A DNA stretch of 64,000 nt, taken from assembly GCF_025398735.1 (NCBI RefSeq), contig NZ_CP104694.1:62001-126000 (forward strand). Reading direction: 5' to 3'. The DNA comes from Tahibacter amnicola (GTDB lineage: Bacteria; Pseudomonadota; Gammaproteobacteria; Xanthomonadales; Rhodanobacteraceae). Both the position numbers and the translations under genes were made by a program. The notes under the pieces are model-generated. The model did not search any database, was not told the DNA's origin, and saw only the letters and a program-made list of their open reading frames with translations. Shown here one piece after another: positions 36,846 to 42,140 of the stretch. How positions within the stretch are numbered: the first letter of the stretch is position 1; each line of letters starts with the position of its first letter.

Positions 36846-37856
36846 TCAGAAGGCGGCGTCGAACGTCACTTCACCTTCCACGGCAACCTGATACGCCGAC
36901 ACGCGGCGCTCGAAGAAGTTGGTCAGTTCCTGCACGTCCTGCAGGTCCATGAAGGCAAAAGGATTGCGCGCGCCGTAGCGCTTGGCCAGACCCAGCTGGG
37001 TCAGGCGCTGGTCCGCGACGTACTCCAGGTACTGACGCATATCCTTGAGCGACAGGCCGGCCACACCGCCCGAAAGCACGTCCTCGGCAAACTGCTGTTC
37101 GCAGGCGATGGCTTCGTCGAGCATGCGGCCGATCTCGGCTTCAAGGTCCGCGTCGAAAAGGCCCGGTTCCTCCTCGCGCGCCACGCGGATCACTTCGAAC
37201 GCGAAAGCCATGTGGCCCGACTCGTCGCGGAACACCCAGTTGGTGCCGGAGGCCAGGCCGTGCAGCAGGCCGCGCGAGCGCAGGTAATAGACGTAGGCGA
37301 ACGCCGCAAAGAAGAACAGGCCTTCAATGCAGGCGGCGAAGCAGATGAGGTTCAGCAGGAACTGGCGCCGCTGCTCGCGCGTTTCGACGCGATCGAGACG
37401 GTTGATGGAGTCCATCCAGCGGAAGCAGAACTCGGCCTTCTGCTTGATCGAGGGAATGTTCTCCACAGCGTCGAACGCCTTGGCGCGTGCCTCGGGTTCC
37501 GGCAGGTAGGTGTCGAGCAGGGTGAGGTAGAACTGCACGTGCAGGGCTTCCTCGTACAGCTGGCGCGACAGGTACATGCGCGCTTCGGGCGCATTGATGT
37601 GCTTGTAGAGATTGAGTACCAGGTTGTTCGCGACGATCGAATCGCCCGTGGCGAAGAAGGCAACGAGGCGCTCGATGAGGTGCCGCTCGGCCGGTCCGAA
37701 TTTCTGGCGCAGGTCGTTCACGTCAAGGGAGAAATCGACCTCTTCCACCGTCCAGGTGTTGCGGATCGCGTCCCGGTACATGTCGTAGAAGCGCGGATAG
37801 CGCATCGGACGCAGGGTCAGGTTGAAACCGGGATCGAGCAGTTTGGCGGCAGACAT
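36846..37856 (-). CDS. nrdB: Class Ia ribonucleotide reductase beta subunit
   Basis: Carries the diiron-tyrosyl radical used by NrdA to make deoxyribonucleotides aerobically. 336 residues from ATG 37856 (MSAAKLLDPGFNLTLRPMRY). All ligands and the radical residue are present: D72, E103, H106, E178, E212 and H215, with the radical tyrosine Y110 in EEALHVQFY four residues after H106, at the same spacing as in E. coli. It follows nrdA by 81 bases on the same strand and shares its riboswitch-controlled promoter. Confidence 0.96.
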   Translation of the reverse strand: MSAAKLLDPGFNLTLRPMRYPRFYDMYRDAIRNTWTVEEVDFSLDVNDLRQKFGPAERHLIERLVAFFATGDSIVANNLVLNLYKHINAPEARMYLSRQLYEEALHVQFYLTLLDTYLPEPEARAKAFDAVENIPSIKQKAEFCFRWMDSINRLDRVETREQRRQFLLNLICFAACIEGLFFFAAFAYVYYLRSRGLLHGLASGTNWVFRDESGHMAFAFEVIRVAREEEPGLFDADLEAEIGRMLDEAIACEQQFAEDVLSGGVAGLSLKDMRQYLEYVADQRLTQLGLAKRYGARNPFAFMDLQDVQELTNFFERRVSAYQVAVEGEVTFDAAF

Positions 37857-37937
37857 AGGGCAATCCTTGGTGACGCGTGCGGCGCCGCCCCGTGGGACGA
37901 CGCCTGGTGTGGACAATGACAGCGGCGGCGCCAGTGC

Positions 37938-40382
37938 TTACTGACAGGCCTCGCAATACTCCGGATTCTCCAGCGAGCAGAACACGGCCTTCTCCGCCTG
38001 CTCCTGCGTCGGAACCACTGCGGCCGCCGGCGCGGAGACCGTGGTCTTGGCAATCTTGGTCGCCGGACGCGAACGCAGGTAGTAGGTCGTCTTCAGACCC
38101 GCCTTCCAGGCGTACATGTACATCGACGAGAGCTGGCCGATGTTGGGGTTTTCCATGAACAGGTTCAGCGATGCCGACTGATCGATGTAAGCGCCGCGCT
38201 CGGCCATCATGTCGATCAGCGATCGCATCGGGATTTCCCACGCGGTGCGATAGATCTGGCGCAGGCGGTCGGGGATCTCGGCGATGGACTGCACCGAACC
38301 TTCCGACAGTTTGATGCGGTCGCGCATCTCGGCCGTCCAGTAGCCCAGCTGCTTGAGTTCCTCCACCAGATAGCGATTCACCTGGAGGAAGTCACCGGAG
38401 AGCGTTTCGCGTTTGAACAGGTTGGACACCTGCGGCTCGATGCATTCGTAGCAGCCCGCGATGGAGGCGATGGTCGCGGTCGGTGCGATCGCGATCAGCA
38501 GCGAATTGCGCAGGCCGCTCTGCTTGATGCGTTCGCGCAGTGCGTCCCAGCGTGCCGCATCGGACGGCGTCACGCCCCAGGCGTCGAACTGCAGTTCGCC
38601 GCTGGCCGTGCGCGTGTCAGCGAAAGCCGGGTGCATGCCCTGCTCGACGGCCAGCTCGTTCGAGGTGACCAGCGCGTGATAGTAGATTTCTTCGGCGATC
38701 TTCGCCGACAGCGAACGCGCCTCGGCCGAGTCGAACGGCAACCGCAGCTTGAAGAAGACGTCCTGCAGGCCCATCACGCCCAGGCCCACCGGGCGCCACT
38801 TCAGATTGGCCGTACGTGCGGTTTCGATGGGATAGAAGTTGAGGTCGATCACGCGGTCGAGCTGGCGCACGGCCACGCGCACCGTCTCGGCGAGCTTCAC
38901 GAAGTCGAATCCGTCGTCACCCACGTGCTGGCCGAGGTTGACCGAGCCGAGATTGCACACCGCCGTCTCCGACTGCGAGGTGACTTCGATGATCTCGGTG
39001 CACAGGTTCGACAGATGGACGACGTTGCCTTCCTTCGCCGTCTGGTTGCAGGCGCGGTTGGACTTGTCCTTGAACGTCATCCAGCCGTTCCCGGTCTGCG
39101 CCAGCGAACGCATCATGCGGGCGTAGAGGTCGCGCGCACGGATCTGCTTCATCGCAAGGCCGGCGGCTTCGGCCTGCTCGTAGGCATGATCAAATGCCGG
39201 GCCGAAACGGTCGACGAGCTGCGGCACGATCTTCGGGTCGAACAGCGACCACATGCCGTCGGTCTCGACGCGGCGCATGAAGAGGTCGGGAATCCAGTTG
39301 GCGAGATTGAGGTTGTGCGTGCGACGCGCCTCGTCACCGGTGTTCTCGCGCAGCTCGAGGAATTCCTCGATATCCGCGTGCCAGGTTTCCAGGTAGACAC
39401 AGGCCGCGCCCTTGCGCTTGCCGCCCTGGTTCACCGCGTTGACCGAGGCGTCCAGTGTCTTGAGCCACGGCACGATGCCGTTGGAAAGGCCATTGGTCGA
39501 GCGGATCAGCGAACCGCGCGAACGCACGCGCGTATACGACAGGCCGATGCCGCCGGAGAACTTCGACAGCATCGCCACGTCGGCATAACGCTTGTAGATC
39601 GCTTCGAGCGAGTCATCCGGCGAATCGAGCAGGAAGCAGGATGACAGCTGCTCGTGCGTGGTACCGGAATTGAACAGCGTCGGCGAGCTCGGCAGGTAGT
39701 CGAGGTTCGCCATCAGGCGGTACAGCTCCAGCGCCTCGCCCACGTCTTCGCTCAGGGCACAGGCGATGCGCAGGAAGAACTGCTGCGGCGTCTCGATGAC
39801 CTTGCGCGACTGCGGATGACGCAGCAGGTAGCGGTCGTACAGCGTCCGCAGACCAAAGTAGTCAAAGCGCTTGTCCATTTCCGGATCGAGCGCGTTGTTG
39901 AGCTTGCGCGCATTGGCCTGCACGAATTCGAGCAGACGCGCATTGATCAGCCCCAGCTCATGGCCGCGCGCCACCGACTGCGAAAACGCGTGGATTTCCT
40001 GGCCACCCACTTCCTTGTCGATATAGGCCGCGAGCAGACGCGCCGCGAGACGGCCGTACTCGGGCTCTTCGGCAGTGAGCATGGCGGCGGTGCGGATCGA
40101 CAGTTCGTCCAGCTCGCGCGTGGTGGCACCGTCGTACAGGCCGGAGATCGTGCGCGTGGCCACGCGCATCGGGTCCACCGAAAACAGGCCGTCCGCTGCG
40201 CGCGTGACGGCGCGGACAATCTTGTTCAGGTCAACCGGCTCGCGCTTGCCGTTGCGCTTGGTGACAGCCATGGCGCCGCTGGAGTGCGGTGGCGTCAGCG
40301 CAAACTGCGGCGCGCGGGTTTCGTTGTCACGCGCGGATCGCGCGGCGGTGGAAGTGGTGTTGTCGAGTTCGGTCGTATGCAT
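37938..40382 (-). CDS. nrdA: Class Ia ribonucleotide reductase alpha subunit
   Basis: Catalytic subunit of oxygen-dependent ribonucleotide reductase, 814 residues. Start at 40382 with GGAGGG six bases upstream. An N-terminal ATP-cone (VTKRNGKREPVDLNKIVRAV, about 40-130) gives overall allosteric control. The active site shows SSCFLLDSP, NLCTEII (C461, E463) and AVCNLGSVNL, the radical-transfer tyrosine pair is in LKTTYYLRS, and the C-terminal regenerating pair is EYCEACQ. The first gene of an nrdA-nrdB operon behind a roughly 400-base leader that contains a cobalamin riboswitch. Confidence 0.97.
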   Translation of the reverse strand: MHTTELDNTTSTAARSARDNETRAPQFALTPPHSSGAMAVTKRNGKREPVDLNKIVRAVTRAADGLFSVDPMRVATRTISGLYDGATTRELDELSIRTAAMLTAEEPEYGRLAARLLAAYIDKEVGGQEIHAFSQSVARGHELGLINARLLEFVQANARKLNNALDPEMDKRFDYFGLRTLYDRYLLRHPQSRKVIETPQQFFLRIACALSEDVGEALELYRLMANLDYLPSSPTLFNSGTTHEQLSSCFLLDSPDDSLEAIYKRYADVAMLSKFSGGIGLSYTRVRSRGSLIRSTNGLSNGIVPWLKTLDASVNAVNQGGKRKGAACVYLETWHADIEEFLELRENTGDEARRTHNLNLANWIPDLFMRRVETDGMWSLFDPKIVPQLVDRFGPAFDHAYEQAEAAGLAMKQIRARDLYARMMRSLAQTGNGWMTFKDKSNRACNQTAKEGNVVHLSNLCTEIIEVTSQSETAVCNLGSVNLGQHVGDDGFDFVKLAETVRVAVRQLDRVIDLNFYPIETARTANLKWRPVGLGVMGLQDVFFKLRLPFDSAEARSLSAKIAEEIYYHALVTSNELAVEQGMHPAFADTRTASGELQFDAWGVTPSDAARWDALRERIKQSGLRNSLLIAIAPTATIASIAGCYECIEPQVSNLFKRETLSGDFLQVNRYLVEELKQLGYWTAEMRDRIKLSEGSVQSIAEIPDRLRQIYRTAWEIPMRSLIDMMAERGAYIDQSASLNLFMENPNIGQLSSMYMYAWKAGLKTTYYLRSRPATKIAKTTVSAPAAAVVPTQEQAEKAVFCSLENPEYCEACQ

Positions 40383-40599
40383 GGCGTCCCTCCGGTGCGA
40401 GTGGGGGCACGGTCATCGTCCCGGCCCAGGGGACGACAAAACGAAGGGACGGCGACGCCGCGGTCAGGGACCGCCGCATGGCCACGCCCCCTCGGGCGTG
40501 CGGAGTGCAGGATGGTGATCGGCGGTCGCGCGCGATGAGACGGCGCAACCTTTAGGCCGACGACCTCCCCGCGGAGGCTCCGGAGCCAGTCCGCGCGGT

Positions 40600-40795
40600 G
40601 TGCGACGCGCGGCTGTCGGCAGGTATTCGGGCTCGCGGACCCGGCCCGACACGCGTCGAACCGCCTACACGCCGTCGCTTCCCAGCCCCGGAGGACCAGT
40701 GCATTTGACGACTGTCGTTTCCACTCACCGCTGCGGGGCAGCTCCGGAATTTCACCGGATTCCCGTTTAATCCCGGCCGAGACCGGGAACCGACG
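40600..40795 (-). ncRNA. Cobalamin (B12) riboswitch controlling nrdAB
   Basis: Read on the minus strand, the conserved core is unmistakable: GGGAATCCGGTGAAATTCCG followed by GAGCTGCCCCGCAGCGGTGA (40764-40725), and the 3' conserved segment GCCCGAATACCTGCCGACA (40632-40614). These are the B12-box and the L5-proximal and closing elements of the aptamer. A short hairpin, CCTCCGCGGGGAGG (40577-40564), lies downstream and may belong to the expression platform. The nrdA start is about 220 bases further. Binding of adenosyl- or methylcobalamin would be expected to turn nrdAB down. Confidence 0.93.
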
Positions 40796-40801
40796 GGACA
40801 C

Positions 40802-40845
40802 AACATATCGGGGTTGACAGAACCGGGTCAACACAAAAGGCTGTG
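40802..40845 (-). promoter_or_regulatory. Probable nrdAB promoter
   Basis: On the minus strand TTGACC (40831-40826) and TATGTT (40807-40802) are separated by 18 bases and would start transcription about 40795, right at the 5' edge of the riboswitch. CACAGCCTTTTGTG (40845-40832), a CACA-N6-TGTG dyad, sits directly upstream of the -35 and is loosely like an NrdR box; a second clear box at the usual spacing is not seen. Confidence 0.5.
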
Positions 40846-40914
40846 GACTGAGCCCTTCGTCACCGAATCGGGCGAGCTCGGCGGAAGCGCCGTGTCAAGC
40901 CCGCGCCGCCGTCC

Positions 40915-41106
40915 TCAAGGGCACGCCAGCGCAGACGCGACGGTGCCCTCGGCAGCCGCACGCTCGGGCGCTGCGGCCCGCGCCGGGGACACTGGCCGGG
41001 CCGCGTCGACCGGCGTGGTCTGCGGAGCGAGAACGTCCGGCCGGACGATGTAGCCATGCATGAACAGCAGGTCTTTGGCGATCGAGAACTTGGCGAGGGA
41101 GAACAT
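40915..41106 (-). CDS. Possible small protein, 63 aa
   Basis: Divergent from the LysR regulator. From ATG 41106 it reads MFSLAKFSIAKDLLFMHGYI, then an Ala/Pro-rich tail. The first 25 residues look protein-like; the tail may be disordered. No good ribosome site is seen. A small gene divergent from a LysR regulator is a common target arrangement, but this could also be chance. Confidence 0.35.
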   Translation of the reverse strand: MFSLAKFSIAKDLLFMHGYIVRPDVLAPQTTPVDAARPVSPARAAAPERAAAEGTVASALACP

Positions 41107-41219
41107 GGTGGGCTTCGCTTTGCGCCGAGGGCGCTGTGTTGAGGCGAATGCAAGCGTAGTCGCGCCATACCGCTGCAAAAAGCGATATCTTCGCAAGCCA
41201 GGCTTGAGGAATTCTCACA

Positions 41220-42140
41220 ATGGCACGTCCGCCACTGGCCGCACTGCAGGCCTTCGTCCAGATCGCGCACTGGCGCAACCTGTCGCGGGCTGCCGAGCAG
41301 ATGAACCTCACCGTCAGTGCCTTGAGCCACCAGATGCGCACCCTGGAAGAGCGCCTGGGCGAGCGGCTCCTGATTCGCGGGCCCCGCGGCGTTTCACTCA
41401 CCCCCGAGGGCGAACGCCTGCTGGATGCCGTGGAGGCGCCGATTGCGGCCATCGAGCGGGCGCTCAAGCCGCCGCAGCGGCGTCATGCGGATGACCTGTC
41501 GATCAGCATGCTGGCAACGATCGCGTCGGGCTGGATGGTGCCGCGCCTGCCGCGGCTGTTCGCGCGTCACCCGCAACTGGAGCTTCAACTGCACTCGGGC
41601 GCTGCGCTGGTGGACTTCAGCAAGGAACCGATCGACGCCGCCATGCGCTTTGGTCCCGGCAACTGGCCCGGCCTGCACGTGGTGCATCTGTTCGACGAAT
41701 GGGTCACCCCCGTGGCCAGCCCGAAACTCCTGGCGGAGCGCGGTCCGCTACGCATCGAGGAGCTGTCGCGGTGGCCACTCCTGGGCGATCCGGGCGATCG
41801 CTGGACAGACTGGTTCGCGCAATTTGGCGGAACGCCGCCAAAGCGCTTCGTGGCCAAATTTGGTGACACGGAGACACTGCATCGCGCCGCCACGGAAGGG
41901 CTGGGCATTGCGCTGGGGCGCGTCACCATGACGCGTGCCCTGATCGAGACCGGCCGGCTGGTGCCGCTCACCCCGTTGCGCCTGCGCGCGGAGTGGTCGC
42001 ACTACCTGGTCTACCCGCCGCGCTCGGCCAATCACCCGGGCGTGCTCGCCTTCCGCGACTGGCTGCTGGACGAGGCACGGCTCCATGTGCAGGAGCTGGA
42101 CAGCAAGACGGCGCCGAAACGGCGCCGTCCGGGGAAGTGA
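41220..42140 (+). CDS. LysR-family transcriptional regulator, GcvA-like
   Basis: 306 residues. N-terminal winged helix-turn-helix (LSRAAEQMNLTVSALSHQMR, about 22-41, continuing LEERLGERLL), then a linker helix and the periplasmic-binding-type effector domain (DLSISMLATIASGWMVPRLP, about 93 onward; PIDAAMRFGPGNWPGLHVV). The sequence is closest in type to GcvA regulators. ATG 41220 lies about 113 bases from a divergent small open frame, the only visible candidate target. The coding end contains a perfect hairpin (42107-42129). Confidence 0.93.
   Translation: MARPPLAALQAFVQIAHWRNLSRAAEQMNLTVSALSHQMRTLEERLGERLLIRGPRGVSLTPEGERLLDAVEAPIAAIERALKPPQRRHADDLSISMLATIASGWMVPRLPRLFARHPQLELQLHSGAALVDFSKEPIDAAMRFGPGNWPGLHVVHLFDEWVTPVASPKLLAERGPLRIEELSRWPLLGDPGDRWTDWFAQFGGTPPKRFVAKFGDTETLHRAATEGLGIALGRVTMTRALIETGRLVPLTPLRLRAEWSHYLVYPPRSANHPGVLAFRDWLLDEARLHVQELDSKTAPKRRRPGK
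42107..42129. terminator. Hairpin in the 3' end of the LysR gene
   Basis: Perfect 10-bp stem GACGGCGCCG / CGGCGCCGTC around AAA, inside the last codons of the regulator gene and 24 bases from the convergent response-regulator stop. It probably serves as terminator for both. Confidence 0.5.

Follow-up and report, generated by a model that had tools for sequence, protein, structure and literature searches.

Regulatory B12 elements on the genes of B12-independent isozymes are said to have been described by Rodionov and by Vitreschak in 2003. Class Ia ribonucleotide reductase (RNR) genes under B12 control, which the initial annotation of the DNA studied here had named as known from other bacteria, are indeed on record for Streptomyces (nrdABS) and Propionibacterium acnes (nrdAB). 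In Streptomyces coelicolor, a B12 riboswitch stands before the class Ia nrdAB genes (Borovok 2006, as cited in PMC4991794). A B12 riboswitch over nrdAB is an already known kind of system. Here we describe the nrdA-nrdB leader in a stretch of 64,000 nucleotides from Tahibacter amnicola (Xanthomonadales; Rhodanobacteraceae; contig NZ_CP104694.1, positions 62,001 to 126,000), called the window below, in whose numbering all coordinates are given; the features discussed lie on its minus strand. Very probably, judging from sequence comparison, this leader is an adenosylcobalamin-type (class I) cobalamin riboswitch working as an OFF switch, by which B12 would decide between the class II enzyme NrdJ and NrdAB. 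The ligand and the OFF direction are what we infer.

The aptamer and its conservation

An Rfam scan of the window returned one match at or above gathering score, to the cobalamin riboswitch family RF00174. It spans 40809-40600 with 111.2 bits (gathering score 31.5 bits; E 5.3e-27) and model positions 1-189 of 189, and a genome-wide search repeated it. The cobalamin riboswitch that the initial annotation had placed above nrdA-nrdB is thus borne out by a full-length covariance-model match. A spacer of 217 nt separates the match from the ATG of nrdA. The core of aptamer loop L5, CCCCGC (40738-40733), one half of the predicted L5-L13 kissing loop, occurs at the corresponding place in 89 of 92 family aptamers, and its exact complement, GCGGGG, lies downstream at 40572-40567.

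Of the 117 family genomes sampled, 93 encode the same NrdA (E 1e-100 or better). Upstream DNA was taken for all 93 genes plus one divergent paralogue (L110), and RF00174 reached its gathering score upstream of nrdA, on the coding strand, in 92 of the 93; the one locus where it did not is L102, in genome G006. Across the class, 79 of 143 genomes match NrdA at E 1e-100, and beyond the genome studied here only one, G128 of the same order, reaches 80% identity, the others lying at 43-51%. Among the best 80 named NrdA loci, 20 of those belonging to the order were scanned with Rfam and 17 carry RF00174, the three without it being Stenotrophomonas (L121, L122 and L128); the loci outside the order are mostly labelled myxobacteria and Acidobacteria. 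Twenty loci of the same nrdA clade outside the order were chosen with at least 600 nt upstream; eight have an aptamer (seven RF00174, one AdoCbl-II), all on the coding strand and all labelled Acidobacteria or myxobacteria.

Some aptamers and loci depart from this pattern. The nrdA aptamer of L018 (4141-4274; genome G079 of the same genus as the window) measures 134 nt against the usual ∼210 and scores 68 bits, the peripheral arm outside the core being absent; this may reflect altered corrinoid preference or decay. The AdoCbl-II aptamer (RF01689) stands before nrdA in an Acidobacteriaceae locus (L187:1223-1299) where clade mates carry RF00174; B12 control looks as though it had been acquired twice or swapped. 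L110 itself (G036:C2:181506-182826) is a second NrdA in a genome of the window's genus, 54% identical and with no RF00174 upstream, possibly a B12-insensitive reserve. Genus g13 (L192, L071, L104, L105 and L107) has in four genomes a second cobalamin aptamer on the opposite strand, facing away from that of nrdA; in L192, the one inspected, which is at the same place as L071, this second aptamer lies before btuB, giving a divergent pair of nrdA and btuB in which each gene has a switch. Finally, the NrdA match is split inside one open frame of 1358 aa in G007 (C2:2515-6042), probably by an intein, and over two frames of 1308 and 372 aa in G099 (C2:505735-508138).

NrdAB and its B12-dependent counterpart

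The gene nrdA (37938-40382) encodes a class I RNR alpha subunit of 814 aa with barrel, all-alpha and ATP-cone domains. Its score with TIGR02506 is 722.7 bits; the NrdJ model gives 366.5, which is under that model's cut-off. The beta subunit gene nrdB (36846-37916) is an open frame of 356 aa, likely starting at an internal ATG near 37856 to give ∼336 aa. An alignment of NrdB with R2 proteins of solved structure shows the carboxylate and histidine ligands all in place, together with a tyrosine at the radical position: D of ATGDSIV, E and H of EALH, Y of VQFY, E of CIEGLFF, and E and H of RDESGH. With the metal ligands and the radical tyrosine (EALHVQFY) retained, NrdAB fits class Ia rather than class Ic with its phenylalanine, in keeping with the operon's first designation.

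RF00174 matches the genome (6,458,662 bases, one contig) at three places, before nrdA, btuB and metE. Two predictions had been made of it from the switch, that it should encode a class II NrdJ and that it should import or make cobalamin, and both hold: NrdJ is encoded (584.9 bits, cut-off 399.95), and BtuB is present with corrinoid salvage genes, the neighbourhood of the btuB aptamer containing a cob(I)yrinic acid adenosyltransferase, CbiB and cobyric acid synthase. MetH and a methylmalonyl-CoA mutase-type protein are encoded too. De novo corrin synthesis was checked by one family, CobI/CbiL (TIGR01467), whose best match, 59.7 bits, fell under the cut-off of 163.25; on this ground, the host is probably a corrinoid scavenger. 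The likely picture is that both B12-independent enzymes with a B12-dependent twin, NrdAB and MetE, are under switch control.

Under the proposed mechanism, coenzyme B12, when present, would be bound by the aptamer, L5 would pair with L13 and the P13 arm would be stabilised. Expression of nrdAB would then drop, and deoxyribonucleotides would be made by the B12-dependent NrdJ. Without B12, P13 would give way and NrdAB would be made. The same signal would repress the B12-independent MetE, with MetH taking over, as well as corrinoid uptake and salvage (btuB-cob), and NrdR at the promoter would add a second control, by the deoxyribonucleotide (dNTP) level.

Hairpins of the spacer

The GCGGGG that complements L5 belongs to a hairpin, GCCTCC-GCGG-GGAGGT (40578-40563). 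Across eight genomes of the window's genus, where the nrdA leader can be aligned from promoter to ATG, its pairs are kept through changes (GCCTCC/GGAGGT, GTCTCC/GGAGAC, GCTTCC/GGAAGC), and they are kept across genera also. A crude scan found a stem of at least 5 bp around a GCGG loop in 84 of the 92 leaders, about six of these being hairpin B (below) or another hairpin. RNAalifold, applied to 40 family spacers of ∼150 nt, recovered P13, then a stem showing compensating changes, then hairpin B; the consensus has 21 pairs, six of them changed on both sides, the changes inside P13 being one-sided in these 40 spacers. A P13/L13 hairpin is an ordinary regulatory arm of corrinoid riboswitches, as PMC10653944 describes them, and since the P13 pairs are conserved and GCGGGG complements L5, the CCTCC/GGAGG hairpin is this standard arm. 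The initial annotation had seen an unusual expression platform in this hairpin and in the long stretch between aptamer and start. Both exist, but the platform is not unusual, because the hairpin is P13/L13 and long spacers are common in the family (145-411 nt in leaders with the start codon set by hand). The longest of these, in L094 (411 nt), has ∼165 nt extra between hairpin B and nrdA compared with L052 (245 nt).

Hairpin B itself, CACGCCC-GAGG-GGGCGTG (40500-40483), lies distal to P13 and is nearly unchanged in the eight aligned genomes of the genus. The family leaders inspected have an analogue near or upstream of the start codon, commonly CCTGC-GCGCGGGA-GCAGG. The genome's own metE leader has a P13-like hairpin and a counterpart of hairpin B, TTCGCCC-GCGG-GGGCGAA; inspection by eye revealed no counterpart in the btuB leader. 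The arrangement is common to nrdA and metE, the two B12-independent isozyme genes. Hairpin B could be an additional functional element of the platform, in which its loop, reading CGCGGGA/G in a large part of the family, would compete with L13 for L5, but we regard this as unlikely: in the window's genus the loop is GAGG, so that only a GGGG-CCCC match with L5 remains.

The metE leader also bears on the direction of the switch. An activating corrinoid riboswitch has been described, that of cobT (PMC10653944), and one may ask whether B12 turns nrdAB ON. We consider this the least probable of the readings weighed here, since the regulated gene is the B12-independent isozyme with NrdJ in the same genome, and since the metE leader has a similar P13 and distal hairpin. 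An OFF switch remains the preferred reading.

A predicted promoter and NrdR-like boxes

Within 40300-41250, a scan for sigma70-like promoters found a single one, where shuffles average 0.1: TTGACC (40831-40826), 18 nt, TATGTT (40807-40802), the whole spanning 40831-40802. Transcription would start at ∼40795, at the 5' edge of the aptamer, so that the nrdA leader RNA would begin almost at the aptamer; a start point at the aptamer edge had been expected from the outset. Two NrdR-like boxes overlap this promoter. Box 1, CCACAGCCTTTTGTGT (40846-40831), agrees with the NrdR consensus at 11 of 16 positions, and box 2, CCCCGATATGTTGTGT (40813-40798), which overlaps the -10 element and the aptamer edge, at 12 of 16. 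Over the family, 79 of 92 leaders have a best NrdR-box match of at least 12 of 16, a number for which shuffles predict 0.36; the top two sites are separated by 32 bp in 74 leaders and by 33 bp, as in the window, in nine. A profile search found nrdR in the genome (204.3 bits), and the tandem boxes together with this gene suggest that NrdR may bind the nrdA promoter. Of the 92 family leaders, 18 also have a perfect DnaA box, TTATNCACA, beside the NrdR-like boxes (0.08 expected), which suggests replication-linked control there; the window's own nrdA leader has none.

Aptamer and NrdJ across genomes

NrdJ is present in 116 of the 117 sampled family genomes. In 20 of the 117, its match falls into two pieces, split near residue 350-358 within one frame of 1104-1364 aa (for example G036:C1:693803-697084), probably by an intein.

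The relation between aptamer and NrdJ was followed in wider samples. In the first 40 genomes, NrdJ was above cut-off in 23 of 25 with the aptamer and 10 of 15 without (Fisher p 0.08), or in 24 of 25 with it if a NrdJ fragment in G259 is counted as present (p 0.02). Fifteen hand-picked genomes were added, eight Stenotrophomonas-labelled and seven from other loci of the order. In the resulting 55 genomes, NrdJ accompanies the aptamer in 31 of 33 cases and is above cut-off in 11 of 22 genomes lacking it (p 0.0003); for the order alone (35 genomes) the counts are 23 of 25 and 1 of 10 (p 7e-6). Given the relatedness of the genomes and the hand-picking of the added 15, these p-values are descriptive only.

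Aptamers in these samples were called by Rfam and, beside it, by a DNA profile built from 88 of the 92 family aptamers (L018, L036, L067 and L098 were left out). Of 25 Rfam-positive loci, 24 reached at least 64.9 bits with the profile, and the AdoCbl-II locus L187 scored 20.3; on 15 Rfam-negative loci it gave no score in 14 and a weak 15.7 in L183. A simple aptamer motif search recovered only 23 of the 92 known positives, and its negatives were therefore discarded.

Eleven of the best 80 named loci are labelled Stenotrophomonas. Nine (L121-L129) are without an aptamer, three by Rfam and six by the DNA profile, and two (L143 and L147) have one by the profile. NrdJ is above cut-off in both aptamer-bearing genomes and in one of the nine others (L123; p 0.055). 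All nine aptamer-less leaders (the ∼420 nt upstream of nrdA) keep the promoter TTGAC...CTATCTTGTG, and a P13-like TCTCCGGGGGGAGA is retained in four (L121, L123, L127 and L128). L123 has apparently lost the aptamer and kept NrdJ. The eight Stenotrophomonas genomes lacking NrdJ have another RNR match, which in the one where it was identified (L195) is a second class I alpha subunit, PRK09209. Lysobacteraceae NML08-0793 (L152) has neither aptamer nor NrdJ.

Such losses raise the question of whether the aptamer in the window is itself a relic, still recognisable, with nrdAB governed by NrdR alone. The tandem NrdR-like boxes that cover the promoter would allow this, as would the nine of 11 Stenotrophomonas loci in which the promoter outlived the aptamer. 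The aptamer in the window is, however, complete, its L5-L13 complementarity is exact, and the family has retained it in all but one of 93 leaders. A relic is accordingly very unlikely, though slightly less so than a switch that turns nrdAB ON.

Counter-evidence and the proposed OFF step

Several findings weigh against a B12-responsive OFF switch tied to NrdJ. G006 and the genome of Stenotrophomonas L123 have NrdJ and no aptamer on nrdA, and conversely G110 and the genome of L165 (a metagenome-assembled genome), both drafts, have the aptamer with no NrdJ found. Outside the order, 10 of 12 aptamer-less loci lie in NrdJ-bearing genomes, so that the link is loose there. As to how expression would fall, the best pairing with the ribosome-binding site (RBS) did not exceed what dinucleotide shuffling of the spacers gives (mean z 0.14 over 72 leaders, those of the 92 with the start codon set by hand), and no convincing intrinsic terminator was found in 40300-41250.

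In the window's own leader, CGTCCCTTCG (40451-40442) can form 10 bp with either the RBS region of nrdA, CGGAGGGACG (40394-40385), at -16.8 kcal/mol, or the 3' arm of hairpin B (40494-40485), at -16.4 kcal/mol. These computed alternatives suggest a translational switch. In the shuffle control, z was 0.55 for the window's genus (eight leaders), and eight of the 72 leaders fell below -1.65. RBS occlusion as a proven mechanism was dropped, the mean z of 0.14 leaving it unproven despite the 10-bp helix. Intrinsic termination was likewise set aside: 40300-41250 has two terminator-like sites against 0.6 ± 0.9 expected, one of them on the opposite strand.

The OFF step could be a block of translation or Rho-dependent termination. 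In the second variant, B12 would still be sensed by the aptamer and would act mainly through Rho in the long spacer. Spacers of 145-411 nt, RBS pairing at chance level and the want of a convincing intrinsic terminator all favour it, and translational control by the metE switch of Mycobacterium tuberculosis is, according to PMC11260477, thought to be augmented by Rho and/or RNA decay. The 10-bp RBS helix available to the window's leader (-16.8 kcal/mol) speaks on the other side, and we give the Rho variant a substantial chance, somewhat short of even.

Comparison with known systems

Among titles in the open-licence literature, none was found on nrdAB riboswitches of this order (Lysobacter, Xanthomonas, Stenotrophomonas). 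What is new here is that the switch is nearly fixed in the sampled family genomes, that members of the same nrdA clade beyond the order, labelled Acidobacteria and myxobacteria, have it too, that most Stenotrophomonas loci have lost it jointly with NrdJ, and that a puzzling second hairpin is common to the nrdA leader and the genome's own metE leader. RNR choice by B12 riboswitch is not an actinobacterial rarity, being nearly fixed in sampled genomes of a large gammaproteobacterial family. Stenotrophomonas, with the promoter kept, the aptamer lost and NrdJ lost in eight of nine, offers a natural experiment on why the switch is kept.

B12-elements on nrdDG of delta-proteobacteria were likewise proposed, in the account of PMC545781, to let B12 repress a B12-independent isozyme given NrdJ; they control NrdDG, whereas class Ia NrdAB is the target here. 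In the class I metE switch of M. tuberculosis, anti-RBS elements were tested with reporters, as PMC11260477 relates, while the equivalent pairing in our leaders is no better than shuffles. P. acnes nrdAB, as presented in PMC3848588, shares the cobalamin riboswitch in the leader, an nrd-box (NrdR) over the promoter and a cobalamin-dependent NrdJ; it has a single nrd-box and observed early termination, in contrast to the predicted tandem boxes here. The S. coelicolor nrdABS system matches the present locus in its B12 riboswitch before class Ia nrdAB and in the adenosylcobalamin-dependent class II NrdJ of its genome (as given in PMC4991794). Unlike that actinobacterium, T. amnicola is a gammaproteobacterium, by gene content a probable corrinoid scavenger, with a leader built of P13/L13 and hairpin B.

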